Assembly: GCF_036373705.1 (NCBI RefSeq) | Contig: NC_089857.1 | Coordinates: 35,350,784-35,414,783 of the forward strand | Direction: 5' to 3' | From: Amia ocellicauda | Taxonomy: Eukaryota > Chordata > Actinopteri > Amiiformes > Amiidae | DNA length: 64,000 nt | In this document: positions 1-21,318 of the stretch, piece after piece | Numbering within the stretch: the stretch's first letter is position 1 | Layout of the letters: every line of letters begins with the position of its first letter | Position numbers and translations under genes: made by a program | The notes under the pieces: generated by a model | The model's input: only the letters and a program-made list of their open reading frames with translations | Told to the model about the DNA's origin: nothing | The model's database searches: none

Positions 1-2700
1 AGATGCACAGAGGAGGACACTGATATTCTCTGCTGTCTTTCCCAGCGAGCAGGATGCTGTCAGCCAGCAGACATGCCTGATTGCAAAAGTGAGTGCAGAT
101 GGCAGCCTGGGATTCACTGTGAACATTTGCTCAATGATTAGCTCAAGGTTAGTGCTTAGTGGGTGGGCAGCACTGACTGCCCCTGCTTTATTAAAAACTG
201 CAGGCCTATTCACGGCTGGCCTCTGAGAGTTACCAGTTTGTTTATTTAAATAACAAACATTCAGCCTTGAAACAAGTGCAGCCACAGAGGACACATCCTC
301 AATGGGATGAGACACTTTCAGCGTAGCTGCCCACCCACATAGATAGGGTTTAGTGGTTGATATCATAAAAGCCAAGAAATGTCATCTTGAATTAACACTT
401 TGCTTATAGAACAAAAAAAAGGGACTCAGAGCGAAGGCCCCTGTCCCTCAGTGTGTGCTGGGCTAATATTCACACTGTGAGGAACTCCGAGGAAAAAAGG
501 AAAAAGAACAAGGGCCCTGACAGAAAATCCCCATCCAAACCGATATCATTGCATCTGTGTCAGCATTACTGATTTATTAAGCCTTGAACAAAATCAAATA
601 TCATGCTCATGCTCTAACATAATCATGCCCAAAATAATAGAAGTCTAAGAAGTTTATGCAAGATTAAACCCTATCTTAGTAGGATCATCCTCTTCAGCTG
701 TGCAAGTAAACTAAACCAACCATTTATGAGTGTCTCTCTAATTGCTTTACTGGGACGTTGGGGGGGCACACAAAAGATAAGGTTTCTCTTCACTTTTGCT
801 GAAACACACCATAGGATAAGCCTTGTACAGTCCTAGCACACTTAGATTATGAATGATATACAGATATGAGGGGAGGTTGGTGCAGGAGAATCATTTTCAT
901 GGCGGGAAAAGCTGTGTGTCAATGAATGACAGACACTGTGTCCTGGGCCCCATGACACTTCACAGGCTCCTATAGGGTCCTGTCCTTTCAGTAGAAAGCC
1001 ACTCATCACAACATCAACACCATCCACTACAACAAATTGTACTACCTAGGAAAGCTAGGGCTACACTCAGCTTCGATGTTTGCATTATTCCTGCTACCTG
1101 TGCATGTTTTAAAATCTGTACATGAAAGGCTATTAAAAAGGAAGGATCAGAAGCTTTTAGGATATTACCAAGTATAACTATTAAGCAAAATTGCTTGCAA
1201 TGCCATCAATAGTGTAAAGTAAGTGGTTTATATTACTTATTTGCTTAATCATTGTAACATTTCTCAAAATCATTCAAATTACCAAAGGCAAAATATAAAT
1301 ATCTGCAGATGTATTACTTTTCAAGTCATGAAAGTAATATTGCAAGCAATACAGTGACAATATAGATATATTGATAGCACTTTACAATCAACTGTATTTT
1401 AACAGTGAGTAGAGTTTGTAAGGTCTATACCACAGATATTAGATGTGGAAATTCCCTACAACAAAACAAAATAATTAATAGATGCAAACCCACATTTATC
1501 TTGTCAGAAATAAAAAATTATGCTGGTGCTGATGTTCAGATGAAAGCCCTCTAGGGGGAAGTCAGTGCAGGATTTTATTACAGCTTTTCATATAACTGGG
1601 GGATTCCCCTGAACCACATCAAGCACCAACCTATGAGTACCCTGAAATTGCCCCAAGTAAAAGGGGCTTAGTGCAATGTAGGGGGGCTCTCTGTTGTCTA
1701 AACTGGTCTACATTAATCAGCCATTTTGGATTCTATCCAGGCTGATCAAGAGAAAAAGATTTATAATAATGCAAAGCCATGGTGTAAGAGTGATCTCTAG
1801 TGTTCACAAGAAGAACTTTCACAGGACAGCAAAACTGAAATCTCTGAAACTCAGCTATTTACTAATGTGCTAAAAATGATACCAAAGCTGTCACAGATCA
1901 TGCTTTTATAATGTAGTAGGAATATTCTTTTGTTAAGTTAAGCCCTAAATATCAATTACAAAGCACAAAACATCATAAATTATCATTCTTCAAACTTTAT
2001 ATATTATTATTAACTATTTATTTATATAACTAATGACAGTGTCCAAGGGGACTTGTATGATCTTTTCAACATGCAGGGCTGGTTAGGACTAGTCATGGAC
2101 TACCCATTTCATTTTAGGTGGAGTAGGCCCAGCCTAGTGCTAATAAAGGTCTGTGAAACCAGTCAATAATGTATTGCATTACTAAGGATTACAACATCAC
2201 TAAAAAATATATATTTAGCTACCAATTCCAGTCATATATATTAGAAGTGAATGAAAAAAAAGAATATCTAAGCCTAACTCAATAAATAATCAGAGCAATA
2301 GAACCCCCAAGTATAGCACAAACTCCAATCTCAAACTAATCCCATTTTAAGATACCTAGTAGAAATGCAACCCCAGCCCTAAGAATAAAAATAAACACAA
2401 AATAGTATCCCATGCATTAGGATTGAAGCAATGTCCAATCTGAAAATAATGCAATTTAAGTTAAACTTTAATATATGAAACACTCACCTTCAATCTAGCA
2501 AAACTCAGAGGAACAAAACACCCCAAAACTAGACAAAAAAATAAATTCACTAATTAAACACCACCCAATCTTAAACTCATCACTCATCTATTTAAACCAG
2601 TATAAGTGAAACTTAAACCTTATTAGGAGTCGGAGCTGATGGGGAAAAATCAATCCCTAACACTAGCCCAGCCTTTAAAAAATCATGACAATAGTACAAG
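1..2700. other. AT-rich intergenic DNA, no recognised gene
   Basis: I find no open reading frame of convincing length, no family motif and no terminal repeats of a complete mobile element here. Base composition is AT-rich throughout, with poly-A runs and scattered short AT repeats. The stretch ends where the terminal repeat of the large EnSpm-like transposon begins. Degenerate old repeats may be present but cannot be recognised by eye. Confidence 0.5.
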
Positions 2701-2711
2701 CATACCCTTAC
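2701..2711 (+). repeat. Left terminal inverted repeat of EnSpm-like element
   Basis: CATACCCTTAC, followed within 40 bases by the first subterminal AGTATACT motif. It matches the complement of 15444-15454 over all 11 bases, with partial similarity continuing inward. The Tc1 copy at 2741 landed just inside this end. Confidence 0.55.
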
Positions 2712-2740
2712 GAAAAATAAGTTTATTGAAGTATACTATA

Positions 2741-3930
2741 CACTCACCTAAACGATTATTAGGAACACCATACTAATACTGTGTTTGACCCCCTTTCGCC
2801 TTCAGAACTGCCTTAATTCTACGTGGCATTGATTCAACAAGGTGCTGAAAGCATTCTTTAGAAATGTTGGCCCATATTGATAGGATAGCATCTTGCAGTT
2901 GATGGAGATTTGTGGGATGCACATCCAGGGCACGAAGCTCCCGTTCCACCACATCCCAAAGATGCTCTATTGGGTTGAGATCTGGTGACTGTGGGGGCCA
3001 GTTTAGTACAGTGAACTCATTGTCATGTTCAAGAAACCAATTTGAAATGATTCGACCTTTGTGACATGGTGCATTATCCTGCTGGAAGTAGCCATCAGAG
3101 GATGGGTACATGGTGGTCATAAAGGGATGGACATGGTCAGAAACAATGCTCAGGTAGGCCGTGGCATTTAAACGATGCCCAATTGGCACTAAGGGGCCTA
3201 AAGTGTGCCAAGAAAACATCCCCCACACCATTACACCACCACCACCAGCCTGCACAGTGGTAACAAGGCATGATGGATCCATGTTCTCATTCTGTTTACG
3301 CCAAATTCTGACTCTACCATCTGAATGTCTCAACAGAAATCGAGACTCATCAGACCAGGCAACATTTTTCTAGTCTTCAACTGTCCAATTTTGGTGAGCT
3401 TGTGCAAATTGTAGCCTCTTTTTCCTATTTGTAGTGGAGATGAGTGGTACCCGGTGGGGTCTTCTGCTGTTGTGGCTTCACAAATGCTTTGCTGCATACC
3501 TCGGTTGTAACGAGTGGTTATTTCAGTCAAAGTTGCTCTTCTATCAGCTTGAATCAGTCGGCCCATTCTCCTCTGACCTCTAGCATCAACAAGGCATTTT
3601 CGCCCACAGGACTGCCGCATACTGGATGTTTTTCCCTTTTCACACCATTCTTTGTAAACCCTAGAAATGGTTGTGCGTGAAAATCCCAGTAACTGAGCAG
3701 ATTGTGAAATACTCAGACCGGCCCGTCTGGCACCAACAATCATGCCACGCTCAAAATTGCTTAAATCACCTTTCTTTCCCATTCAGACATTCAGTTTGGA
3801 GTTCAGGAGATTGTCTTGACCAGGACCACACCCCTAAATGCATTGAAGCAACTGCCATGTGATTGGTTGGTTAGATAATTGCATTAATGAGAAATTGAAC
3901 AGGTGTTCCTAATAATCCTTTAGGTGAGTG
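2741..3930 (-). mobile_element. Tc1-like transposon A (1190 bp), inactive
   Basis: A full-length Tc1-like element with about 28-bp terminal inverted repeats starting CACTCACCTAAA and differing at one base between ends. It is flanked by the TA duplication expected of the family (2739-2740 and 3931-3932). It sits in the left subterminal region of the EnSpm-like element, so it inserted after that element. The minus-strand transposase gene inside is broken. Confidence 0.9.
2773..3782 (-). pseudogene. Tc1-like transposase A, frameshifted
   Basis: The minus-strand reading starts with MGKKGDLSNFERGMIVGARR at 3782, the N-terminal helix-turn-helix region that binds the terminal repeats. It continues to a frameshift near 3425. 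The correct frame then meets an in-frame TAG near 3373, just before the WSDES motif that carries the first catalytic aspartate. The remainder (down to 2773) is open and contains the second aspartate in FQQDNAPCHKG and the [14 protein letters not shown] block with the last acidic catalytic residue, ending KGGQTQY. All domains of a Tc1 transposase of roughly 340 residues are present, but the product cannot be made in one piece. Identification as Tc1/mariner is secure; catalytic inactivity is inferred from the two lesions. Confidence 0.88.
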
Positions 3931-6898
3931 TAAGTATACATATATCGGATAGTACACTTTTAGTATACTACCAAATAGAAAAAATAGTATACATTTATAC
4001 TGGAGCAGGATGTTACTTCCATTAAACAGCCAAAACAGTCACAATTCTTGTACAGTAGAAGTTACAATTTTTAGATTCATCTATACTGAGTATTCATGTC
4101 AAGGAAATTTTATTATGCACTGCATACTGAAGCTGTAACCTTTATTACTGCCAAAACATTATTGTGCCGTACTACTATTAAAGAGTTATCAATTGCATTA
4201 ATGGAATTGTCTATAAATCGATTCAGCTACAGCACTTACTGTATGTATTATGTATTATGTATTATGTGTATGGAACACAGAGAAAAGTCAGATGAAACAT
4301 TTAATTAATTATATTTTTTATTGCTCCACATTTTGTTGAAAGTAATATGACTGAAAGCCCCAGACAGACAGGAAATGATTATATTTTAAAACATATACAA
4401 ATTCAACAGAACAGACAAAACTGCTGAATGGACCTCTAATCCCGTTTATATGAATTTGGCAGTGGGATGATGTAGGTTTTTCCATATACACTGACAGACA
4501 CACATTTCATTTTGATCACATCAGGGCAGACTGTAAAAATGTTTCCTTTCTTTCTCACTTCGTGTGTGAAGCTACTCTTTATGTTTACTTGTACATCTTG
4601 ACATAGTGGCCTGCTAGATGTCAGAAGTTCCTCAACTATCACACAGCAGCGCTTCATACAACCACAGATTACAGGGTTTTCATGTAAGCACATATGCTTG
4701 AAAACGACTAAATCAATGATCAAGCCAATCGTACCATCCATCAGTAATACCACACTGTTGTTTCGTTTCTTAATTCGGTCATATTTTTGAGTGTGAAACA
4801 GAACTCCTTTGACCAAAAAGCGACTGTAGGACCAAAAACAATAACTTAGGTTCCCAAACAGTTGCTCCATAACAAGCCTGTGGGTACTGAAATGTCCTTT
4901 TGTAATGGTGGATGACCAAACCCTCTGACTATGTTATTTATTAAGTCACACTTTTCAGTTTTACGGTTGTTAAAATAAAGTTCATCATAAAAAGATTGAA
5001 CCTTCTCACTCGCTCCAGCCATGACATTTTTGGCCTTTTCAGGCAATTCCCTCCATAACATAAATGTTGTAACTATTTGTTTAGGGACATACTGAGTTCC
5101 ATGAAAGTATTTGAGTAGCTGGCCATTATTAGATTCAAATGCAAATGTTGAAGTTGCCCATAATGGCCCCCAATGATTTACACTATGTGGAATGTGTGTG
5201 AGCAGGTGAATGTTGAAAGTCATATGCTGCTTTCCATACAGTCTTTGAAATTCTATGACAAACACTAGTTTGAGCGCTAGTCCGGTCACATTAATTTTGG
5301 AAATTTTGACAGTGTCCTGCAGTAAAGTGTATATTCCAAACACTAGAAGAAAAAGATGGTTACAAAACTTGTTAGGAAGAACACCTTTCAGCATGGGCAA
5401 CGCATAAAACAGCAGAAAGGCTCTTCATTCTGAAGCCTTCCAGAACTTTCGCTCACATAGTGACCTGGGCACTCTAGTTACTTCAACAGGTGGTTTTATG
5501 TTAACTAGTCTTGAATCAATCTCTGACATCTGAATGCCAATGTACTGGACAATGTACTCCGAGGCACACACTATGCTGATATTCTGGAACAAATCCATTT
5601 ATCATCTGGAAGTGGACAAGTTTCATTAAAAGAGATGGCCCTTTGAAACCGTATACTGGCTGCTCAGGTAAAGCTAACACTGCATGACAATAATGGTCTT
5701 TTTAATTTCAAAGGGCAGGTTCTGGTATTCTGTACGGATATAATTTACCACCTGGTAAATTTACCAATGGTAACAAAAATCACACCCATAAAAACTGCTT
5801 TGTGTTCCACAGCATTGGACAGGCAACTGAGTCTGAGCTACACACAAGCACAAACACTTTGGAGACATGGGTGTTCCCTTGTCTATCTTTCCAGTCAATA
5901 CCGGTTGTTTCTAAGTGTAAGGCTTCATTTGTGAATGGTGTTAGAAGTGTCATCATATTGGGTTTATTTGGCCCAAACCATAAGGCTGACATCAAAATGT
6001 GTTGCTTTCGCTGTTCTGGTTTTAACTCAATAACCTGGCACTGTATAGGCCAAATTTGACATTTGGAGCTCTTAAAAACTGGTACTCCATCACAATTCCA
6101 TAATAGAGTCATGTCATCTTTTCCCAGAATTTGATTATCATACAGCTTCCTGTATTCTTCTCCACATTGTATGTCTGACAAATCATCACCGTTAGGTTTT
6201 CTAGACAGACTAAAATCATGTTCCTGAAGAAGCTGCTTAATCTGACCAGACAATGGGAGCACAAGAAAAAAACAACCACACTTTAGGTTTGAATCAGCAT
6301 CAAAGACTGTGTTACACATGTCACATTGCAAAGGACAGCTCGCAGTCATGCCCTAGTATTTTGTGCAACAATTACAATAGAAGTGAACCTCATATTTAGA
6401 TGTACTTCCAAATGCCTTCTTAAATAAATACTGCATAGTTGGTACTAAGCCTGGAAAAAATATGTTAAACATTTGAAGTAGATAGGTCAGTGCCTGGCCT
6501 GTTAGATGGTGTCTTAGCACATATGTCATGAGCAACAATAAACTCTGTCCCTTTGAAATTGGTGCCCTGGGATACAACGGTTTGTCACCATCCTCCACTC
6601 TGTCTTCCTTAATCTAGTCTTCATTGTTCTGGAGGGAGGGAGGGAGGGGGAAGGAGAGAGAGGAAGAGAGGGAAGGTGAAAAGACTAAAATATACCAATC
6701 ACAAATTTTAAATAATAGATTTCTCTCTGTGGCAATAGCGCACAAGAGATGGCATTCCATTTGCAATTTTGTTTCAGGGTGCAGCTATTAACATTACCCT
6801 CTATAAAATAAGTAACTTCGTCAAAAATTAAGGCATACTAGCAGGTGACAAAAAATATACAATTTTAAGATAAATAAATCCAATGTTATTAAAAATAT

Positions 6899-8430
6899 TA
6901 GGGATGTACCGATAAGAAAAGTATTGCCCGACACCGATAGCCAATGTTCATATAACATCTAACATCTACCTGTCTTTTCCCTCTTCTGACCCTCTCATCC
7001 CCTCTCGCATCTCTTCCTGCTTGTCTGCTATTTCCGCCTGGATGCACTCGCACCACCTAAAGCTCAACCTCTCCAAATCGGATCTCCTCTTTTTCCCCCA
7101 CTCTTCCTCACCTTCTGCTGACCTCCCCATCTCAATCCCCTTGGAATCCACCACACTCTTCTTCTTCAAAAAATCTAGGAGTCACCCTCGATCCTGCACT
7201 CTCCTACACCCAGCACATCACCACGCTGACGCGCACCTGTAGATTCTTCCTGAGCAACATACGCCGGATCTGTCCCTTCCTCACAGACTACTCAACTCAG
7301 CTACTCGTCCAGTCACTGGTCCTCTCCCACCTGGACTATTGCAACTCCCTCCTGGCCGGCCTGCCTGCATCTACTACCCGCCCACTCCAGCTCATCCAGA
7401 ACTCTGCAGCTCGTCTGGTATTCTCTCTGCCACAATTCGCACACGCTACTCCACTGCTCCGCTCCCTCCACTGGTCCCCGATAGCGGCACGCATTCAGTT
7501 CAAGACATTGACCCTCACCTACCGCTGTCTCGACCACACTGCACCAAGTTACCTTCAGACACTCGTCTCTCCATACATGCCCTCCAGACCACTGCGTTCC
7601 TCCAGTGCCAGAAGACTAACTCTGCCTCCTCTCCGCTCTCCTTCCTCCAGAGCTGCTCCTTCTCATCCTTGGCCCCTAAATGGTAGAACAACCTGCCCAC
7701 TGAAGTCAAAACAGCAGAGTCCTTGAACTCATTCCGGCGCTTACTCAAGACACTTTTCCGACAGTAATTGTAATATTAGTCCTCTATCCCTGCTAGATAG
7801 CACTTCACAGTTTTATTATGCTTCTCGCGTTTTTGATTGTTTTCCTCCTTGCTCCCTTTCCCGTAGCCCTTGTCTGTGACCCTACATCTTGACAGCACTT
7901 AGCTTTCACCGTCCAGGATGTAGGAAGTCTCTTACTGTACTTGTGTAAATTGTAAATTGTAATTTGTAAAATGTATTATTCTGAATTGCTGTTTTAGCTA
8001 AATTGAATTTGTAATGATTGATGCCTTGTACTTCACTGTATTTTTGCACTTATGTTGTAAGTCGCCCTGGATAAGGGCGTCTGCCAAGAAATAAAAATAA
8101 TAATAATAATAATAATCATAATCATAATCGGTTGATGTCGATACCAATTTTTTGACATTTCTGTAACTTTCTACCCTGTCATCAATTAAATAAAAATGTT
8201 GCTCTGATGAGGCTTCTAATTTGAGCTCATTTTAATTATACAAGTTATTAATCCATATATTTGAATAAGAAAAGACGTATATCCCATTCAGACATAGGAT
8301 AAAAGACCACCAATTTGACATATGGTGTATTTTTTAGAAATGAAAGGTATGCAAGGTGAAACCCGTCTACAAAGCCGATACAGCCGATGTGAGCTTAACA
8401 ATAGCTGGCACTACAATACTTTTAATACAT
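6899..8430. repeat. hAT-like fragment split by an L2 insertion
   Basis: Sequence at 6899-6956 (AGGGATGTACCGATAAG, then a GACACCGATAGCC block) and at 8128-8430 (ATCGGTTGATGTCGATACC, then GCCGATACAGCCGATG) resembles hAT-type fish repeats with ACCGATA-rich ends. The two parts are separated by the L2 LINE at about 6957-8119. I cannot find a clear second terminus, so this is a partial copy and the class assignment is tentative. Confidence 0.35.
6957..8119 (+). mobile_element. L2/CR1-clade LINE, 5'-truncated, 3' end complete
   Basis: The plus strand encodes the C-terminal part of a LINE reverse-transcriptase ORF. Recognisable blocks are SHLDYCNSLLAGLPAS (about 7325-7375), PLQLIQNSAARLV (7385-7425) and LHWSPIAARIQFKTLTLTY (about 7465-7525). 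The frame changes several times, so it is not functional. The copy ends at 8060-8119 with GTCGCCCTGGATAAGGGCG, then TCTGCCAAGAAATAAA and an AAT-type microsatellite, the usual L2 3' tail in fish. About 1.16 kb is present of an element normally several kilobases long, the common result of incomplete reverse transcription. It is inserted inside a hAT-like repeat, itself inside the EnSpm-like element. Confidence 0.85.
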
Positions 8431-8470
8431 CTTAAATGCAGGGTGCCTTATCCCAAGGAGTTTATATAGA

Positions 8471-8695
8471 ATAATTATCCATTCAAGGAAGGATGGACAG
8501 CAGCTCCCTCTAAAAACAGTCCACATTCACCGATGTCTCAAAAAGTATTTATTGGAGAAAAAGTGAACATCATGATGCTTACGCATTTCGATCTTCCTCA
8601 GCATCGTCCTCCAATAAATACTTTTTGAGACATCGGTGAATGTGGACTGTTTTTAGAGGGAGCTGCTGTCCATCCTTCCTTGAATGGATAATTAT
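8471..8695. repeat. Perfect 87-bp inverted repeat with 51-bp spacer
   Basis: The arms at 8471-8557 and 8609-8695 are exact reverse complements by direct reading, starting ATAATTATCCATTC and ending with its complement. The spacer (8558-8608) contains a smaller imperfect inverted repeat around GATGCTTACG and CCTCAGCATC. No ORF or terminal duplication is evident. It looks like a fold-back element or a recent inverted duplication; a transcript would form a very stable hairpin. Confidence 0.9.
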
Positions 8696-8717
8696 ATAAT
8701 ATTATATATATATATAT

Positions 8718-9660
8718 TAGGGCTGTGCAATATGACGATATATATCGTATGACGATAGAAAAACGTCTATCGTTTCATATTATGCTATATCGTTTATATC
8801 GTGGTGTCGCAAATTGCGAACTTTACGGCAGTATTTTTCGTCATTAGGACGCTTTGCGTTATTCCACACGTGCTGGATGCAGGTAGAAATGAGCACCAGA
8901 AACACAGACGCACACAGCCTGACGTGGAGAGGAGTTTTGTGTCTGTTTTATTATTTGTGCTTTACATGATTGTAAACAGCGTAATACATACACGTTTCTG
9001 TTCAGAGATATTAGGAAGAGCTGAACGTGTAGACAACATTATATTCAGACAAGCATTGCATTACCGTAAGAAAACGTTTCCATGTGCAACAATAAATATT
9101 TGCTATTTATTATTATTATTGTAACTAGTCATGGCGTTTATGGACTTATGGACGAATGTATTAGTTATTAATGTTTTTGAGGGAAACCCAGATCTGCTGT
9201 ATTTATTAATTAATTAATTAATCTTGTAAATGGGCACACATTAACTGAATCGTGTTTGCCTTCATACTGACTGTCTCTGCGGGGCTGTTATACAACAGAC
9301 TGCACACCATTCACAGGACAACAGCCTGAAACATCGTCCAGTTGTTCATTAAATATGAATGCTACCGATCCGATTATTAACCTTCGGTTTGTTTTAACTA
9401 GTCATGGCACTGCACCGGTCATGTGAAATCCAAGTTTTTAATACACTCGGATATTAACTTGTTTCTGTACGTGGATTTCACTCCATGATGCTAATACAAC
9501 TAATTTTTTCGTGATCACACACGGCACTTGAGATTATATCTTCCGACACAATGTGTCTGATCTCCCTGTGTCTCAAGTCAAGCGCACACCTCCGCTGCTG
9601 AAAGAGAAGTATTTCCTCAGTGGGTGACGGACGCTAAAATCGGTTTTAGGGTTTAAGGCT
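8718..9660 (+). mobile_element. hAT-like element fragment
   Basis: The sequence starts TTAGGGCTGTGCAATATGAC followed by repeated ATATCGT motifs, the usual look of a hAT-type terminus in fish genomes. The rest (to about 9660) has no transposase motif that I can read and no matching opposite end. The class assignment rests on the first 100 bases only, and the right limit is approximate. Confidence 0.4.
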
Positions 9661-10578
9661 AGTCTAGGGCTCTTGAAAAATATATATTAGTCAATGAGTC
9701 AAACTGGTCTAAAAGGCAGTAATATAAGAACTAGACTTAATCTGTATCTGTGAAAACGCTCAATGTTACATTTCAAAATACACGCTTGCTTGCAACATAC
9801 CATGGCAGATGAAGAGTCGTCCGCTTCACTGCTGGGATCGGGTATGTCTTCCTCTTTGCTGTTGGGATCAGATCTGGAGTCTTCTTCATTGACATTAACT
9901 TCCTCTGCAGACTGAAGCAACAAGAAAGAGTAAGTCAGTTCAGTACATTTTATAACACACAGCTTCAAGAAAAAAGAAAAGAAAAAACGCCATGTTTAAC
10001 TAGATACTGTACATGTTGTTTTTAAACTAGTTATATATTGTTAAAAAGTTGCAAACTAGTTACCTATCCAACTAGTTTCCTGAAGGCGAGTCTGTTCCAG
10101 CCGCGACTGGAGCCTCAAGTATAACTCCCGCTTCAGTGACCTCATATAGGATAGCTAAAGTTATCCCATTACAGTCACTGTGGTTATAATATGCGTACTT
10201 TAGCTAGAACTTACCTCTTCATTCCATCTGTACGTAGTTTGTTCTTCTGGGAATCCTTTCATCTGGGTGCTCAAGGTACCGTTTGTAAGGTCCTCTTCTT
10301 TGGGTCATTTTAAAGCAAAGTTTTTGTCAACACTGAAATGTGTCCGGATTCAAATACACTCCTTATTAGAATACAGAATAATATACAGAAGAAAAGACTA
10401 AACATTTCTGGAGAATGTTTTGGTTGTATTTTTCGCGGGTGACGGAAGTGACGTTGCTTGCGAACTACCATTAAACTCGAAAGCAGAAGAAGGAAGTGAC
10501 GTTGCTAACCGTTTCAAAAAATTTTCCCTCCAATGATCGTCTTCTGGGAGTTTCAATGTATGGTTCGCAGTTGGCACC

Positions 10579-12760
10579 ATGGCGTTTGCTTTGTATTTCT
10601 TTCAAGATAAGTCTGTGGAAGTGGGGAGAACGGATTTAATGAATGATTTAATTCTCTGGTAAAAGAATAACTGAATGTCCATCTCTAGAAGGGGACGACG
10701 GGTGGGTGCAGGTACGATGGCGCAGCGCTGGCAGAAAAGCAGCATCTAACACTGCAGAATATCCGGCCAAGATTCTCATGCTAAGCGGTGAGTTTATTTT
10801 TTAGGTGATGATGGGGGGAAGTTGGAGACATCAACTCGATGAACCAGTTGCTTTAAAATTATTTATGACGACCTAATGGACCTATCTTGTTAACTACGTT
10901 ATTTTTTTATTTACAATAATGTAATTATTTTATTTTGTTTTTAAAGCGCAATAAGGAACGCTGCCCTGAAAAGAAGGCCGCAAACAAAATGATAGAAAGT
11001 GTAAAAGAAGAGTTGATGGTTCAAATGAAAAGCACTTCTGATCAGCAAGTAAGCATTATGTTATTACCTTTTTGAAATTAGAATATTAGGCAGCAAATAT
11101 GCAATTGTATTCTGTTCAGTGAGTTATATGGATAGATTGTATGCAGGCTACATTATTAATATTTTAGTGGAGTTGCTTGGTGTGTGAGTTGAAACTACCG
11201 TACTGTACACTTGATTTGTGTTGTAGCCTTCTGAATCAGAGGAAGATGAGGACTCCAGAAGAAAGTTAAGTCAGGAGGTAAAAAGGCTTGGAGAGGAAAA
11301 TGAAAGGAACGACTTGTCAGAAATAGTGATGAAATCCTCAGTGCCCTCAAAGGTAATTTCTCCAGGAAAGAAACGTTTCATGATGTAAAACTGCAGTGTG
11401 CCCAGACATCACAGTTGTGTGCCTTCATGCCCATGTTAAAATATCATAAGGCTGCTTCTCATTATAAATGTGATTTTCATGGTCATTGCATGATAAATAT
11501 AATTCTTATCCTTCTTCTTCACCTTTACTTCTTTATAAAGACTTTCCATCAATTGTGAGTTCCTTGAAAGCCATGCTGGAGCGACGTCCATCGTCATGGT
11601 CCACCCCATCGTGCAGTGCATCAGATAATCCTTCTCCATCTCCATGTTTGAGTGTTGTGCCAGGGAATGTTATTGATGAGGTATGTTTCTAATACACAAG
11701 ATGCTGTGCTATCAACTAAAAGCTGCTATAGCAGATAAACATACCCGTATGAAGGATGCTACAGTATATAAACACAATCTTTTGTTTGTTATTACTGTCA
11801 TTTAAGGTGTTGTTTAATGATGTATAATAATTAAGAATTGTGGCGTTCTGAAGAACTCACCAGCGCTGAATTGGTGCTGAGTAAGACAGCTTCCCAAGTG
11901 TAAGAAATACCTGTTTTTAAAAACAATTGCAAACCTCCAGTGCTACGACACATGCCTTCAGATTTTTTAATGTATGTGTATCTGACCCGATAACTGTTTG
12001 AGTCTTGTCGCTGCACTGAAGGTTCGCAGTTCTTTTTAAAGAGTATCTCTTACTCTTTGGAGACTGTTCCACTACCATTAGGAACGGCTGTGTAGGAATT
12101 TAGTGCTGGTGAGTTCTTCAGAATGACACAATTCTGAACTTCCTTTGAATTAACATTTTTCAGATACCTTTGATGCCAGGATTTGCAGTTTGTGTATCTG
12201 CTCGCCAATTGAAGTCTCTAAAGAGCCTGAACCTTTCCGTCTACAATGGAGATCTTGCTGTCCTGGTGTTTGGAAGGGAAACCTTGGCTACATCCAGTCT
12301 GACTGGCCGGCAATCTGGAGCACACAAAACCTTGAATCCAAACCAGCCTTGGACCCTGAGAAGATTGCTGCCATAATCGGTGTGTAGGATGCATTAAGTA
12401 CAAATTTTAAAGTCTATGTACTATGTTAAAGGCACTGTGAATTTCTTGTTAGTGTTTTGTTAATTATTTCGCTGTTCAATTGGTAGTGATGGTGCGTTAT
12501 GATTTCAGTAAACAAATGAGAACATTCCCTCCGCAAGAGTGCCTATGAAATAGCTTCTATTGGGTATTTTCAGTCTGAAGGAAAACTCCTTGAAATCTTC
12601 TTTTCTGATATCCTTCTGTATTCAGAGTCTCTTGTCGTCTTGCCCGGCTCAGTATGCTTTTTTATTTTATTTTTATTTTACAGGGCATGCTATGGAGAAA
12701 TTCAAAGAAGTAACAGTGCAAGATGTCCGGAGAATCATACGCAAGAAATGCAACAATTAA
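10579..12760 (+). pseudogene. BEN-domain gene carried by the EnSpm-like element, broken
   Basis: Six exon-like blocks on the plus strand are bounded by GT/AG: 10579-10787, 10947-11048, 11227-11352, 11541-11680, 12164-12379 and 12684-12760. The start reads MAFALYFFQDKS. A frame change near 10655 leads into GDDGWVQVRWRSAGRKAAS and AEYPAKILML, then lysine/glutamate-rich and serine-rich linkers. The last two exons give LAVLVFGRETLATSSLTGRQ and, after a one-base loss near 12330, PALDPEKIAAIIG joined to HAMEKFKEVTVQDVRRIIRK and a final KCNN. This is the BEN fold, a DNA- and protein-binding domain. The junction of blocks 1 and 2 also fails to keep frame. It lies head to head with the transposase gene. 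Identification as BEN is good; its role as a transposon partner protein is inference. Confidence 0.68.
11836..12134. mobile_element. Small MITE with about 40-bp terminal inverted repeats
   Basis: The ends are near-perfect inverted repeats. The left reads TTCTGAAGAACTCACCAGC within 11836-11880, and the right carries its complement within 12096-12134, both bounded by AATTGTG-like sequence. The 299-bp unit has no coding capacity. It lies wholly inside the intron between blocks 4 and 5 of the BEN gene. The superfamily cannot be assigned from the ends alone. Confidence 0.72.
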
Positions 12761-13289
12761 TGCTTCAAACAAGTCAAGGCAGAAAGTGTGTGAGCCTGCA
12801 TTTCATGTACGGGAAAAAAAAAATGAAGCATATTGTTACTTAAAATAACCATGTTCATTTTAACATACCGTAGGTCAAAATAGGTCAACCAGATGTTTTG
12901 TTTTTTTGTATATATACAACCAGAATTCTTAGTTATTTGTAATTTCAAAGTCCATCCTATGCACAGATTATGGCATCAATATTTTCAATGTTCAAAGCTG
13001 GTTCAAGTGCTTATGCTATTGTTTAGCCCCCTTTCGGACTGAAACTATATAGCTAGATTGTCGGTATTGTCAGTTTGACAATATTGCTTTAAGTTTGTTA
13101 AGTACTGTTAATATGTTTAAATACTCTTTCACTAAACATTAAATGTGTCTGAGTCACATCTTGTGTCTTGAGTTTCTACCAGTAAGGGTATACAAGTGAT
13201 TCCTTTATTTTAAAGATGTTAAATATACAGTAGTATGTTTCTTGTAAAGTTTGAAGTGGAAGTCATACCAGACACATGACCCCGAGTGT

Positions 13290-13760
13290 TAAAGTATTGT
13301 TTAAGTAAACAGTTAACTTTAGTATACTTACGACCCATGTTTTTAAACATTTATAGTTATAGTATACATTTAAATATTTCAGTAAATCTTATTAAATTGA
13401 AAGTGTATTACAGAGATTACTTTGGAAGAGTATCTCTGTAGTGCACTTTCAAGTACAAGTCAAAATATTAAAAAGTATACTTTTAAGTATTTCAAAAAGT
13501 CTGCTTCATAAATTGAAAGTACACTTCAAATTATTCAAAAGTATACTTTTAAGTATTTCAAAAGGTATACCTCATAAATTTAAAGTGCACTTCAAAGTAT
13601 ACTTTTAATTTTTCATGAAGTCTACTTTTTAAGTTGAAAGTGCATTACACAGAAACTTTTAAGTATTCAAAAGTAAACTTAAAATATACTTTAAGTGTAC
13701 TTTGAAGTGTACTAAATAAACAAAAAAGTGGGCCAATTTAGTCTACTTAGTACAAAATTT
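13290..13760. repeat. Subterminal array of AAGTATACTT-like palindromes
   Basis: More than a dozen copies of the motif AAGTRYACTT or close variants (AAGTATACTT, AAGTGCACTT, AAGTGTACTT, AAGTCTACTT) occur in both orientations, often joined by TTAAGTATTTCAAAA. Related copies lie at 2720-2740 and 3933-4000 at the left end and at 15348-15440 at the right end, on both sides of the Tc1 copies that split them. Subterminal repeats recognised by element-encoded proteins are a known feature of CACTA transposons; use as such here is inferred. Confidence 0.75.
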
Positions 13761-13771
13761 GTATATACATA

Positions 13772-15345
13772 CAGTGAGGGAAAAAAGTATTTGATCCCCT
13801 GCTGATTTTGTATGTTTGCCCACTGACAAAGAAAAGATCAGTCTATAATTTTAATGGTAGGTGTATTTTAACAGTGAGGGACAGAATAACAGCAAAAAAA
13901 TCCAGAAAAACGCATTTCAAAAATGTGCATGTTAATGAGGGAAATAATTATTTGATCCCCTATCAATCGGCAAGATTTCTGGCTCCCAGGTGTCTTTTAT
14001 ACAGGTAATGAGCTGAGATTAGGAGCACTCCCTTTAAGAGAGTGCTCCTAATCTCAGCTCGTTACCTGTATAAAAGACACCTGTCCACAGAAGCAATCAA
14101 TCAATCAGATTCCAAACTCTCCACCATGGCCAAGACCAAAGAGCTGTCCAAGGATGTCAGGGACAAGATTGTAGACCTACACAAGGCTGGAAGGGCTACA
14201 AGACCATCGCCAAGCAGCTTGGTGAGAAGGTGACAACAGTTGGTGCGATTATTCGCAAATGGAAGAAACACAAAATAACTGTAAGTCTCCCTCGCTCTGG
14301 GGCTCCATGCAAGATCTCACCTCGTGGAGTTTCAATGATCATGAGAACGGTGAGGAATCAGCCCAGAACTACACGGGAGGATCTTGTTAATGATCTCAAG
14401 GCAGCTGGGACCCTTGTCACCAAAAAAACAATTGGTAACACACTACGCTGTGAAGGACTGAAATCCTGCAGCACCCACAAGGTCCCCCTGCTCAAGAAAG
14501 CACATGTACAGGCCCGTCTGAAGTTTGCCAATGAACATCTGAATGATTCAGAGGAGAACTGGGTGAAAGTGTTGTGGTCAGATGAGACCAAAATCGAGCT
14601 CTTTGGCATCAACTCAACTCGCCGTGTTTGGAGGAGGAGGAATGACCCCAAGAACACCATTCCCACCGTCAAACATGGAGGTGGAAACATTATGCTTTGG
14701 GGGTGTTTTTCTGCTAAGGGGACAGGACAACTGCACCGCATCAAAGGGACGATGGACGGGGCCATGTACCGTCAAATCTTTGGTGAGACCCTCCTTCCCT
14801 CAGCCAGGGCATTGAAAATGGGTCGTGGATGGGTATTCCAGCATGACAATGACCCAAAACACACAGCCAAGGCAACAAAGGAGTGGCTCAAGAGGAAGCA
14901 CGTTAAGGTCCTGGAGTGGCCTAGCCAGTCTCCAGACCTTAATCCCATAGAAAATCTGTGGAGGGAGATGAAGGTTTGAGTTGCCAAACGTCAGCCTCGA
15001 AACCTTAATGACTTGGAGAGGATCTGCAAAGAGGAGTGGGACAAAATCCCTCCTGAGATGTGTGCAAACCTGGTGGCCAACTACAAGAAACGTCTGACCT
15101 CTGTGATTGCCAACAAGGGTTTTGCCACCAAGTACTAAGTCGAAGGGGTCAAATACTTATTTCCCTCATTAACATGCAAATCAATTTATAACTTTTTTGA
15201 AATGCGTTTTTCTGGATTTTTTTGTTGTTATTCTGTCTCTCACTGTTAAAATACACCTACCATTAAAATTATAGACTGATCATTTCTTTGTCAGTGGGTA
15301 AACGTACAAAATCAGCAGGGGATCAAATACTTTTTTCCCTCACTG
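13772..15345 (+). mobile_element. Tc1-like transposon B (1574 bp), nearly intact
   Basis: A full-length Tc1-like element with long terminal inverted repeats (outermost CAGTGAGGGAAAAAAGTATT, similar for roughly 200 bp into each side). It is flanked by TA at 13770-13771 and 15346-15347. It inserted into the right subterminal array of the EnSpm-like element. Between the left terminal repeat and the gene is a 44-bp inverted repeat (13987-14030 and 14040-14083). The transposase reading has only two visible lesions, so this is the youngest-looking Tc1 copy in the window. Confidence 0.93.
14126..15138 (+). pseudogene. Tc1-like transposase B, one deletion and one stop
   Basis: It starts [20 protein letters not shown] at 14126. 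A one-base deletion in the run near 14190 shifts the frame within the first helix-turn-helix. The shifted frame then stays open through the second DNA-binding region, [12 protein letters not shown] (first catalytic Asp), [13 protein letters not shown] (second Asp) and [17 protein letters not shown] (third acidic residue, DD34E arrangement). A TGA at 14977-14979 replaces what the family usually has as an arginine CGA codon, consistent with CpG decay. The tail ends [10 protein letters not shown] at 15138. Total length fits a 337-residue transposase minus one base. It would not give active enzyme as read, unless one of the two lesions is an assembly error. Confidence 0.9.
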
Positions 15346-15443
15346 TAAGTACATTTCTAGTTTACTTAAAAATCCATTCAAAATAGTGTACTTTATATAC
15401 TTAAGTATACTTACAAAAATAAACTTTAGTATACTATTTGTTT

Positions 15444-15454
15444 GTAAGGGTATG
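15444..15454 (-). repeat. Right terminal inverted repeat of EnSpm-like element
   Basis: GTAAGGGTATG, the exact complement of 2701-2711, immediately outside the last AGTATACT subterminal motif. Sequence outside it (from 15455) is AT-rich with no sign of the element. Confidence 0.55.
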
Positions 15455-16197
15455 GATTTTTTAAATTATATAATTCCTGATAAAATGTCCAATCTGCGAC
15501 TCATCCAGTTTTAGTGAATGCCATAGGAAGAAATCCTAAAATGATTAGAACTCAACCATTCATATAAATTAATTATCCCTATTCTGTTTTTTTCAGATAA
15601 ACTGAAACTACCTTGAAAGACAACTTGCAGTTTCTTCCCCAACACGTTTACTTTATTTGTGGACAGCATTAATCAAAATACAGCAGATGGCACTAAAGTT
15701 TCACATTTGCATTTGTCTTTCAGATTCACATTGTAAAATGCAGTTTCCCCTTTAAACACTGACCTGTTGAAAAATACTTGTAAAATATTTGATGTATACA
15801 GTTATAGGTTATATCTATACAGTCTATTTATTTATTTAATTCATCTTTAACAGTTAACTGGTAATGGTAATTGCATACTGGGGACTTCAGCAGGCAAAAT
15901 GGTATTACTTTTTGTTTTTGTTTTTAAATGTTAATTATTTTCGGAAGAAAAACAGAAGGGGATGTTTTGTTTGCTTGTTTCAGTTATCTTTGACACAGAA
16001 TTACAATATTGCCAGTTTTCCTAGTCAGTATTACCATGGCTTATGTGACAAGGGAACAAAGAAGTAGTCATGCAGAAGAACATTTTGCAGTTATATTCCT
16101 GTTGTTTAATTTTAGTTTTTACCAACCAGCATATCCAGAATAACCATACGCCCTAACATGAGGTAAAGTGTATCTTCTGAATGCACCACACTAATTG

Positions 16198-16224
16198 TTG
16201 TGTGTGTGTGTGTGTGTGTGTGTG
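16198..16224. repeat. (TG)n microsatellite
   Basis: About 13 uninterrupted TG units. Likely polymorphic in length; no function seen. Confidence 0.95.
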
Positions 16225-17515
16225 TTCTAGTGTGTTTGTAACCAGGGCAAATTGTATACTTTCAGAACAGAACATTTCATAAAACCTGACAAATAATAAT
16301 AAAAAAAAAACCATTTCAGAACCCTTTCTCTGGGTAATTATATTAATACCCAAAAGGCATGAAATACCTAATATCAAACATGTGACACCTATGATATTAC
16401 TCATGACATGTTATAGCTGAAGCATTCATTTCTGATTAAACAATTCACTCATTAAAATGTGTTAACAAATTTGTAAAAGAGGAAAATAAATATGTAATGC
16501 AATACTTGTTCTGTAATTACTATAAAGCAAAAACAAAACAAAACAACACTCAAATCAGTTCAGCCAATTCATTTGAAGTGGTGCAATGTGTATCACATGC
16601 TTTGGTTCATGCTTGGCACACTGAGGAAGATTGAAGGACACACAAAATGGCATTCTTTGTTGAAGAAAATTAAGCATTTCCTTCTGGCTTTGATGCAGAG
16701 AAAAGCAAGGAAAGAAACTGAATAAAGAAAGCTGTATGAGTTTCCATGAAAGGAATGAAAGAGCTTTATGGTGTTATATTTGGTTTGGCTTGTGCTGTCT
16801 GGAAGGTTATGGAAAGAACACACCATGTTATCTGAAATGATAGGCCCAAAGAGAACCAGCCAAACAGGCACACTGCCACTGTTTCAGAGGGCAAATTGGA
16901 AAATATTATAAGCAATGAAAGTCAAAGCTTAAGGTTCAAAGAACAAAATTAATGAAGTACTGCAACACTGAAAGAAAAGTTTTTTAAAACATCCAATAAT
17001 AGTATAAATGCAAAATGCCCTGAATTGTCCACAGGGGCTGGTGGCCGGAGGGTTGCTGAATAACTTGTCGACTAGGGTGGAGGACTGGGGGCTATATCAC
17101 CAAAATAGGATGAATATGAATACAATATCTATAAGCACCTAAGTACAGAGAAAGTAAAATTCCCCCATTTCAATCAGAATCGCCCCATTTGAAAATGATT
17201 TCCCCCCCCATACAATTGCCCATGAAATCTCCCCCACCCCCTATTTTTTCCACTATGGCTTTCATTTTCCGCCAGTCTGGCAACAGCATGTGAAACATAG
17301 CTCATCCAATTGCATGTGCACGACTGCAGATGTCAACATCAACAAAATGACAATAGCCAATGAAGAAATAATATTCATGTGCCCAGTACATCTCATTATC
17401 TTTATTGGCCAATGGTCAGACTGTCACGACAAAGAACTTGCTCGGCTTTTTAAACCGTTCGGCGCTGGCTGTGTCTATCTCGTGGTGTTGTGGCCACCAC
17501 GAAAATTACATACAC

Positions 17516-17517
<2 letters not shown>

Positions 17518-17556
<39 letters not shown>
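17518..17556. repeat. (AT)n microsatellite
   Basis: About 19 AT units in a row. A self-complementary tract that could extrude as a cruciform; otherwise a simple repeat. Confidence 0.95.
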
Positions 17557-17560
<4 letters not shown>

Positions 17561-17888
17561 CTACATTATGACACGAATACAGCCATTAATTGCATATACT
17601 GTATGTATAGGGAACGCAATGAAAAGCAGCTGACTCAAGCCCGCCCTCATAATTCAGCGGCCATAATCTCATATTTATTCTTTTAGAACAAAACACAACC
17701 AGGTTCATCAACATCTGACCAAGAATATGTGACCGCAGCAATAAAGGACCAGGTCGGTAAAAATGAATGAGGTTGAAAATAAGTTGCAGCAATTATGAGT
17801 GTTATTGATGGAATAGTTTTAAATACCAATAAATCATGCAAAATATAATATATACTTGGGGAAACGTGTTAGACTCCATTACAATGTA

Positions 17889-18629
17889 CACTACCGGAAC
17901 ACCTACATTTTTCCAGTTTTCATTGAAATTTATGCAGGTTAATCTCTTAATGTTTAATGTACTCTGAAATTAAAGCATAGAACAAATAAACAACTGGAGA
18001 TAAAAAATAAATCATAACATCGTTTTAACAAAATGTAACCCCTTAAGCTGACAAACCCCTCTGGTACTCTTAAAAGGGCACCAAATCTGTGTGCTTCTCT
18101 TTAATCCCATGTGCACTCTCCACTGTTGTGTTGATTGCCAAGTGTTTGGTATCCCATAAGTGGAGACCTCTCAGCTTTGATGTGAAGCATTCTCTGATGT
18201 GAAACATTTGTTTTTTTGTGGGGGGATACTTGGTCTGAGTAGCAATACAAAATCTCAGAAAATATTGACAACTATGACGTATTCTGGAACCAGAGAGTCT
18301 ACTGATCAAAACAAGGCCATCCATGTTTTTGTAGAAGCAACACACACCCATAGAGAGCTCAAAATGTCAAGATGGAAAACTGTTTACAGTGTACTAATAC
18401 ACAGCGATTTGACATAATTGGATCTGAACTTCTCTGTGTTTGATAGAACATCAAATAATACATACTGGAATAATCATTAGGTTGTTGATCAAAACAAGCC
18501 TACTTGTAAAGAAATCTGATTGAAACTGAGTGATCTGTGACCATCTGAATATGAGACCCCCCCAGAGCAGACTGTGTGTTTAGCCCCCAGGCTAAAATGG
18601 GGGTGTTCTAAAACTTTTGACCGGTAGTG
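17889..18629. mobile_element. Tc1-type relic or MITE (741 bp)
   Basis: The left end starts CACTACCGG after TA (17887-17888) and has lost about 10 bases of the terminal repeat. The right end reads GGTGTTCTAAAACTTTTGAC followed by CGGTAGTG, the well-known end of a fish Tc1 family. The right TA has decayed to AA. The interior has no transposase that I can read, so it is a deletion derivative. Confidence 0.72.
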
Positions 18630-21318
18630 AATACAAAGGTTAGATTGTTTCAAGCAATTTTATTGTATTGTATGGCAGTTATGTCAAACATAAAAAGGAT
18701 TTAACATATTTTCTGATGTGTTCACTTCAGTTACACGTTGAGTGTTTTTTTGTCTATGTATTGACATGACATGGATTTTGTTGGTTTAGAAGAACATTGA
18801 TCTTGACTTTAATCTCTTATATGGATTCAGGTTGTGGTTACTGTGTGTACTGTACTACAGTAATGAGTAATTGTTGCAGAGTAATAATAGCATTTATTTG
18901 ACCATCACCAGAGTGCTCATGTGTGGCTATGCGGTGAAGAAAATGAAAATGTGTGGTGAATAATAAGATTAAGAAAATGCTTAATTTTTATTTGTTGATT
19001 ACAATATTGGTCAGAGAATAAAAAGGGTACTGCTTTTTTGTCTTCAGGCCCCCAAAGATGTAGATGGAAGATTTGTGATATAGTGGAACAGAAGGCCAGT
19101 AGAACTGCACGGTTTTGAGGCCAATTAGTCATTACAAAGGCAGCTGCTGACAGAGTGGGGAAGAGGAATATTGCTACAGGTAAAGCTTCTGTTTTGGAAG
19201 AAAGAGTTTTTATTTTGGGCTACTGAGACTACAATTATTTGTTTAATTACTCCAATTGAATGTAATTTTACTGGAGTTCTAGGTCTGTCTCACTTTTATC
19301 CAGGCCACAGATCATCTGTTCACATCTTAGGCCAATAATACTTTCAGTAATGTATTAAACTGTAGTGAAACATTTTTAAATAATTAACTGGAACGGTTAT
19401 CTCTCCTTATTTCATAGATATCCAGTTTATGTAAACAAAGCTACTAGATTTCATTTCTTTGTTGAATCGTCACGTGATACAAGCATCAAGAGGTTTCGCA
19501 TGAGATGCATTATGGAAGGTTTCTTGGATGTGCGATTAACTCAGGCAACAGAACATTCTGACCAAGAAACCAGCGACATATCAGTGTGACCTGCTTCTTT
19601 CATTGCCATGGCTCTTTGAGATGTTTTCTGTTTTAATAGCACGGCTTCGTTTCCTTGACGTACCCTGTGTTCCAACCCTCTTATTTTGTTGTGCAGAGCA
19701 CGAAGATAATCTGTTTTTGCATTCTCCCCGTAAAGATAGTTACTAACAATATTTGCTTCATGTGCCTGTCCAGGAGTGATAAAGCAAGATTTTGGTGTCG
19801 TGCCCATGTGGAGATTATGTTCCCAGAACTCCCATGGAACAGTCCATGAGAGTTAAACTGTGAAAGCTCAAAGTGAGTTTTAATAAGTAAAAACAGAGGA
19901 AAAATAACCTACAATTTTGTAAGAAAAAAAGACTATTATCATCTTATGGATGTGGATGGTGTTTTAAAATATACAGAATAATGATTACAAAGCTTTCATT
20001 GTTATCTTTGGCTGTTTATTAACTTTAACACGGAGAACAACAAGTTGGCTTGCTTTCAGTTTTATTAGAACAATACAGGTCTGAGAAAGACATTAAGTTC
20101 TTTGATGAATGGAAGGTTCATGAACTTTCTGACCCATAAACTTTAAGTACATATATTCTCAGTGGCAAAATGTCTGTTTGTTATTGAGTATTGTTAGCTA
20201 TGTATTGTACAGTGAAGCCTCTGCCTTTTCATGCAAGACTGTCAATAGTGAAATATGTATTCTGGAAGATAATGTACACATACGTTCTGGTCCTTTTATA
20301 ATCTCACCTAATAGAAAAAGACAATTCAGTAAAAACAATTATATCAGGCATTTCTGAAGAGCAATCTCCTTCTTGATTGCATTACTGGAGTTTGTTGAAC
20401 AGTAGCATAGGGACAGTCACATACTGGTTCTTTCAATCGAAATCATTTCTTGAACACAGTCTAGTCCTTAATTATATCAATTAATTCACCCAGTCCAGAA
20501 GCAAGCACTTTTTTGTGAGGACATCCTCTGTAAAAGTCTGTGATCTGCAATAGATGCCCTCGCGAAATGAATCCTGTAGTATTGCCTAGGATCCTACAGC
20601 ACAGGTTGGCCTTGGAGATCTGTGGGACTTTCTGGGTTCTGTAATATTGTAGCCCTTAAGTAATCAATTGACACATTAATTGAGCTGGTAAAAATCTTCA
20701 TTCACTGCAGGTAGGCAGGTAGTTAGTGTTCTCTATAAAAGCAGCAGACTTATGGCTCTCTATAGCAGGGGTTGGCCTGTAGAGGTCTATGGTTAAGGCT
20801 ATTGGATTGTCTAGTGTCCTTCATCATGCCAAAGGAGACATTGTTTGTTAAAAGGGGATTAGGAATACAAATAACCTCTTGCCATAAATTGACCAAAACA
20901 CTGGTATATTATATTAATTATATTACACAGAATTAATTCACATAGTTTGTAGTGACCTTTCTACAAGCATGCCAACCACTTTAGACATTTTGAGATTCTG
21001 CTGCCTGGTATTTAACTGGAGAAATGTCAAGTCTACTCAAGGCAGCATAACTCTAAAGGAATGTGTACACAGCATTCTACCAGCTATCATATGGCATTGA
21101 GTAGAGTCAATAGGACTGGTCATGTCTGTCAAGTTAAATTAGCTATTTATGTATGTATGTTCAGGGTTTTTCAGATTGTAGGTGTTTGTTGTTTCAATTG
21201 ACTATAAATATAATTTTGCAGGGGGGGAGGGGTATACTTAAAGTATAAGGTATAGGCTACTTATTAGTTTTATTGTTTTGCTACTAAACTAATTTTAATG
21301 TATTGTTTACCTCATACA
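18630..21318. other. Intergenic region downstream of HSD17B3
   Basis: Mostly unique AT-rich DNA with no recognised gene, apart from one exon-like ORF at 19664-19828 described separately. No terminal inverted repeats or LINE tails were noticed. Confidence 0.45.
19664..19828 (-). CDS. Unrecognised exon-like ORF
   Basis: On the minus strand an open frame reads FWEHNLHMGTTPKSC, then ITPGQAHEANIVSNYLYGEN, AKTDYLRALHNKIRGLEHR, and meets a strong donor (AGG followed by GTACGT) at 19663. The composition, rich in charged residues with a predicted helical LRALHNKIRGLEHR stretch, looks protein-like and unlike the surrounding AT-rich noise. The frame continues past the donor to 19541 without a stop. No convincing upstream acceptor in the same frame was found; a good acceptor near 19862 leads at once to an in-frame TAA. 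It could be an exon of an unidentified gene, a first exon starting at the internal Met (19807), or a fragment of a dead gene copy. I do not recognise the family. Confidence 0.35.

Follow-up and report, generated by a model that had tools for sequence, protein, structure and literature searches.

The 64-kb stretch of DNA analysed here (the window; C8:35350784-35414783 of a 988-Mb host genome assembled into 385 contigs, whose repeats look fish-like) holds a 12.7-kb element with the ends CCCTTAC...GTAAGGG, inside which a transposase-like gene on the minus strand and a spliced BEN-domain gene on the plus strand read apart from a common region. The features are given below in their order along the window; related loci elsewhere in the genome are designated C6, C18, C19, C20a to C20c, C27 and C244.

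2705 to 15450, no strand: whole element, CCCTTAC...GTAAGGG; right end common to C6, C19 (ATAAGGG) and C20b
2703 to 2704, no strand: TA, likely left target duplication (TA on either side; one copy, chance match 1/16)
2705 to 2738, plus strand: left terminal repeat, palindrome at 2730; resumes at 3938 past a nested Tc1-like element
2737 to 3937, minus strand: nested Tc1-like element, outside the family; inverted ends, ORFs labelled by eye
3938 to 4020, plus strand: left subterminal stretch, AGTATACT at 3962
4436 to 6613, minus strand: transposase body, interrupted by stops and frame jumps, that matches DUF1258 and has GCDFCYH near 5764-5793; C6 is 86-95% identical
9804 to 9911, minus strand: transposase exon 2, acidic piece; the region 9666-9869 is also in the C20 copies
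10222 to 10308, minus strand: transposase exon 1, start codon at 10308
10309 to 10578, no strand: divergent promoter region common to both genes; GGAAGTGACGT lies at 10444 and 10492, its sole two places in the window
10579 to 10787, plus strand: BEN gene exon 1
10947 to 11046, plus strand: BEN gene exon 2
11227 to 11352, plus strand: BEN gene exon 3
11541 to 11680, plus strand: BEN gene exon 4
12164 to 12379, plus strand: BEN gene exon 5, carrying the first portion of the BEN domain
12684 to 12760, plus strand: BEN gene exon 6, with the last part of the BEN domain and the stop codon
13290 to 13762, plus strand: right subterminal palindrome array, AGTATACT at 13321, 13474, 13540 and 13596
13763 to 15354, plus strand: nested Tc1-like element, outside the family and different in kind from the first, with CAGTGAGGG ends; inverted ends, Pfam HTH_Tnp_Tc3_2 and DDE_3
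15355 to 15450, plus strand: right end, AGTATACT at 15404 and 15428
15451 to 15452, no strand: TA, likely right target duplication (TA on either side; one copy, chance match 1/16)

A preliminary description of this DNA had enclosed both genes in one pair of terminal inverted repeats. The inverted ends (2701-2735 and 15420-15454) pair at 27 of 35 bases, against at most 25 in 60 shuffles of the neighbouring DNA, and this part of the claim stands; the perfect 11-base run within them is ordinary, shuffles having yielded runs of up to 13. The termini themselves had to be moved. At C6, C19 and C20b the match to the window ceases at 15450, past GTAAGGG (ATAAGGG in C19), and the four flanks that follow the equivalent position (window, C6, C19 and C20b) are all different. 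Since homology at three loci stops at 15450, we place the ends of the element at 2705 and 15450, 4 bp inside 2701 and 15454. With homology ending after GTAAGGG, the outer CATA and TATG become flank, in which TA is the likely target duplication: the flanking bases are ATA on the left and TAT on the right, with TA alone in common, in the one copy that has both ends. Only the window copy and C244, its duplicate contig, show the left end. An inner right end at 13182-13192 was considered and rejected: GTAAGGGTATA at 13182 is followed by CAAG, which equals the left flank, and the site first resembled a second right end with a CAAG duplication, but in C6, C19 and all three C20 copies this sequence lies inside the element, with the array continuing beyond it.

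The plus-strand spliced BEN gene of the preliminary description was borne out. Its six exon-like blocks, between 10579 and 12760, were read through with an X at two frame jumps and match the Pfam BEN profile with an E-value of 9.9e-11 (42.1 bits, cut-off 23.2) over profile positions 5-76 of 76. Exon 5 of the window alone gives 19.5 bits (E 0.0011), under the cut-off of 23.2, and exon 5 of C20b alone gives 26.3 bits against the same cut-off. The reading also matches solved BEN domains in sequence, namely 4ix7 (E 7.9e-7; listed as RE55538p, which we take to be Insv), 4x0g Bsg25A (2.2e-4) and 7yul BEND6 (2.9e-4), but these are cellular proteins and not transposon genes. In exons 1, 3 and 5 the window differs in length from the other copies by amounts that are not multiples of three, and its BEN gene is therefore dead; the transposase carries stops and frame jumps, and the copy as a whole is dead, as had been proposed. 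No inverted repeat around the BEN gene scored above shuffled sequence (the best reached 12, and 20 shuffled versions scored 10 to 15); terminal repeats of its own, which had been named as a sign of separate insertion, are thus absent above that background.

Two further observations concern the body of this gene. The segment 12341-12405, where exon 5 ends and the following intron begins, recurs in inverted orientation at 12935-13003 with 75% identity (E 2.6e-9), and this copy is also readable past the BEN gene in C19 and C20b. Intron 4 contains an insert-like piece (11831-12138) with 42-bp inverted ends; it is common to the C6, C19 and C20 copies and is therefore older than their spread.

On the minus strand, the gene is transposase-like as described, but its assignment to the DUF4218 type was not supported: Pfam gave no DUF4218 hit in the window transposase up to E 10. 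The transposase body instead matches DUF1258 (E 5.4e-5, 23.3 bits) under the cut-off of 33.1, and no DUF1258 match was obtained with the C6 transposase pieces at E <=1. Transposase_21 (tnp2) was without a Pfam match in the window and C6 pieces, a weak negative given that the copies are broken, and NCBIfam returned no match for two C6 pieces. In the available portion of PMC3985635, DUF1258 represents the Mirage group of transposases and is a relatively close homologue of Transposase_21, of the CACTA family. Both window and C6 have the C(2)C motif of the CMC group, as GCDFCYH, its placement between the catalytic residues D and E being judged by eye; for the H(3-4)H motif, the C6 reading offers just HYCH, with two residues between the histidines. 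The 33-bp unit of the acidic exon (window 9817-9869) has undergone tandem expansion in C20, where its copy number differs among the three copies (for example C20b, 11297-11946 of the joined L021+L022; the C20 copies are L019-L024).

The preliminary description had both genes start from a shared 270-bp region, and this was upheld by start codons at 10308 on the minus and 10579 on the plus strand. The GGAAGTGACGT boxes in this region are ETS/CRE-like; C6 has kept both of them, C19 a single one. A joined pair of ETS and CRE boxes typically marks a promoter that is broadly active and often bidirectional.

Several foreign pieces lie inside the element, namely two Tc1-like elements, a LINE-like piece and a long hairpin. 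A genome search with 2701-2860, a query that is mostly nested Tc1-like element, gave 40 scored matches out of 796 candidates, most of them 95-99% identical over about 127-147 bases. The matches listed being mostly of this identity, the Tc1-like family of 2737-3937 moved recently; they are uninformative on the BEN-carrying family. The second Tc1-like element (13763-15354) has a long open frame and an internal 48-bp hairpin at 13987-14083. The long hairpin at 8464-8702 has arms of 94 bases that are 97% complementary, with 51 bases between them. The segments 6959-8115 (LINE-like by eye) and 8178-9284 (hairpin, unknown sequence) are absent from C6, as later insertions would be, and C19 has a similar LINE-like piece in another position, adjoining transposase exon 1. 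Rfam at gathering scores gave no match in the window.

The ends of the element are marked by a dense palindromic motif. AGTATACT occurs nine times in the 64 kb, of which eight are inside 811 bp of terminal DNA, whereas 2000 shuffles of these 811 bp gave a mean of 0.08 and a maximum of 2. Similarly, AAGTATACTT with at most one mismatch is found at 15 sites in the window against 3.8 expected, a number reached in none of 100 shuffles, and 12 of the 15 are in the element's ends. The motif is present at both ends and more abundant on the right. GTAAGGGTATG with one mismatch occurs at three places in the whole window; 8 of 100 shuffles gave at least three, and we count this against our best explanation. 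All seven ten-kb loci that carry BEN exons, representing five independent loci, contain AGTATACT, which is found in none of seven neighbouring loci and was also absent from six 3-kb stretches surrounding Tc1-like copies. Palindromes are said to be the kind of site that BEN domains recognise.

When BEN exon 5 was used as query against the host genome, all 21 candidates were scored and nine matched: the window, C244, three at C20, and one each at C6, C19, C27 and C18; about 20 kb around each match was then inspected. C244 was left out of the copy count, being a 29-kb contig of which 19,400 bp (window 41-19440) are 99.99% identical to the window, flanks included; we regard it as a duplicate contig or a second haplotype and not as a second insertion. 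The three C20 copies, about 60 kb apart, were counted once as a duplicated locus, leaving five further independent loci beyond the window and C244. C6 has both the transposase (86-95% identical) and the BEN gene, in the same divergent order as in the window and with different flanks. It is damaged: on the left it is truncated at the position equivalent to 4037, it lacks BEN exon 6 and some of the transposase, and extra sequence separates the promoter from the BEN start. In C19 the greater part of the BEN gene survives, together with the promoter region, the right array and a scrap of transposase exon 1. At C20, where the right array is also found, C20b and C20c have BEN exons 2-6 and C20a exons 4-6, and the acidic transposase exon region is kept; no transposase body was found in the C19 and C20 copies within the roughly 20 kb fetched for each. 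At C6, C19 and C20 the BEN gene is thus found again together with the right array of the window, and at C6 also with the divergent transposase, in agreement with the proposal that it belongs to the transposon family. Both genes together were seen at just this one other locus, which we count against our best explanation.

Diverged BEN exons lie near similar arrays at C18 and C27, where the window queries recognised late BEN exons alone and no transposase. The C27 exon owes its BEN label to its match with the exon of the window, to which it is 58% identical (E 8.5e-13); the reading of the C27 exon had no Pfam hit at E <=1. At C18 the array begins about 460 bp past the last BEN exon, much as in the main subfamily. 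At C27 it is upstream of BEN exon 5, reversed and with its own CCCTTAC end, and may therefore be a separate insertion. ORFs upstream of the BEN exons in C18 (L031/L032) resemble immunoglobulin-type receptor pieces by eye. A search for relatives in IMG/VR and GTDB gave a sole hit, L001, a phage-like contig whose match falls in an ORF that resembles a homing endonuclease by eye, and it was taken as chance.

Selection on the BEN gene, which the preliminary description had proposed to assess, differs with the distance compared. Within the subfamily, identity to the window is 0.92-1.00 in exons 2-6 and 0.957-1.00 in introns 2-5 (exon 1 and intron 1 of the C6 and C20 copies, deleted or misaligned, were dropped from the comparison). 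As read from these alignments, the pattern is one of decay after spread, with exons behaving like introns. Close pairs show nonsynonymous change alone, with synonymous to nonsynonymous counts of 0 to 6 for C27 and C18 in exon 6 and 0 to 3 for C20b and C6, as dead copies would give. Between subfamilies, on the other hand, change is mainly silent. In 52 codons of the BEN domain, chosen as gap-free aligning stretches with the exon 5 codons between and beside them excluded, C20b and C27 differ by 30 synonymous changes over 38.9 sites (saturated) and by 22 nonsynonymous ones over 117.1, with a dN of 0.22; for exon 6, C20b and C18 give a dN of 0.37 and a dS of 1.05. This suggests that the BEN domain was under constraint over the time that separates the subfamilies; the purely nonsynonymous change in the close pairs speaks against it.

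The element had been called EnSpm-like, a name that is not supported in the strict sense. Its ends are CCCTTAC...GTAAGGG, with the right end fixed by three loci, in place of CACTA or CAC...GTG termini; instead of a 3-bp target duplication, TA alone is common to the two flanks, in one copy; and the transposase has a sub-threshold match to DUF1258 rather than one to Transposase_21. A TA target duplication is typical of Mirage. The best label is a CMC element, Mirage-like by its transposase and probable TA duplication. The likeness to animal Mirage elements with DUF1258 transposases (PMC3985635) consists of the sub-threshold DUF1258 match and the probable TA duplication, and the text available from that source does not mention an accessory BEN gene, which is present here.

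Plant En/Spm, with TNPA and TNPD, is likewise long, with terminal inverted repeats, a repeated subterminal motif and a transposase accompanied by a second gene, TNPA binds the subterminal repeats, and the end-binding proteins of plant CACTA elements have little similarity between families, all according to PMC2613891. En/Spm is one alternatively spliced unit, whereas here there are two separate divergent genes, a BEN domain replaces TNPA with a presumed DNA-binding role, and CACTA ends and a 3-bp duplication are lacking. Sly1-1 of Neurospora, an 11.5-kb element, is also a CMC element with a transposase and a second gene, whose homologues are adjacent and divergent in other species; it differs in being fungal and in having a second gene of unknown function, and the accessible part of PMC4592977 mentions no BEN domain. 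In Tn3, DBD1 of TnpA is a BEN-like domain that reads the terminal repeat of the transposon, but it is bacterial and part of the transposase itself, and the likeness lies in the fold (PMC9579193). A description of a transposon-borne BEN gene was not found in the open literature searched, and such genes may be catalogued in Repbase.

The most likely reading, and a well supported one, is that BEN is the element's own second gene. What the protein did is less certain. By analogy, we infer that it may have bound the AGTATACT palindromes, a step with precedents in TNPA, the BEN-like domain of Tn3 TnpA and the two-gene element Sly1-1. We give about an even chance to the view that the locus is a dead two-gene CMC element in which BEN bound the ends for the transposase, in the manner of TNPA and TNPD. 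Transposase and BEN protein would be made in the same cells from the 270-bp region; the BEN protein would gather on AGTATACT sites near both ends, help to join these ends for the transposase and perhaps also damp the element's own transcription, and the transposase would cut at CCCTTAC. The pair would work as TNPA and TNPD do in plants, except that an unrelated DNA-binding domain would fill the TNPA role.

A different function for the same second gene is possible, if rather unlikely: BEN may have acted on transcription or chromatin, through anti-silencing or promoter control, while the transposase itself read the palindromes. Cellular BEN proteins regulate chromatin and transcription (PMC9233729, in the text available), and fungal DNA transposons carry genes thought to aid escape from silencing (so an extract of PMC12730594), yet dense palindromes at both ends call for a reader, and BEN is a DNA-binding domain. 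We regard it as improbable that BEN is a host gene caught by chance in a master copy and a passenger ever since. That the gene decays as introns do within the subfamily, and that its best-matching solved domains come from cellular proteins, would fit such an origin; mainly silent change between subfamilies, and the presence of BEN near an array in the diverged subfamily at C18, suggest use instead, and the shared promoter fits a working pair. The site at 13182 had lent some colour to the idea that BEN was inserted separately into a transposase-only element and that the two genes are chance neighbours. With that site internal in other copies and followed by the array, the inverted repeats around BEN within shuffle range, and the pair repeated at C6 with different flanks, which already contradicts it, this last explanation is very improbable.

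Beyond the single locus, we hypothesize that BEN had the role of an obligatory end-binding partner. On this hypothesis, to which we give somewhat less than an even chance, an animal CMC lineage recruited a BEN protein as such a partner, in divergent arrangement; the palindrome and the BEN domain would change together between subfamilies, and some animal BEN genes may be leftovers of such elements. If BEN is indeed the partner in an animal CMC element, the system would offer a defined DNA-binding fold with a candidate site, AGTATACT, open to direct assay, and elements of this kind would be one source of BEN genes in animal genomes. The element itself may be the animal counterpart of plant transposons that work with two proteins.
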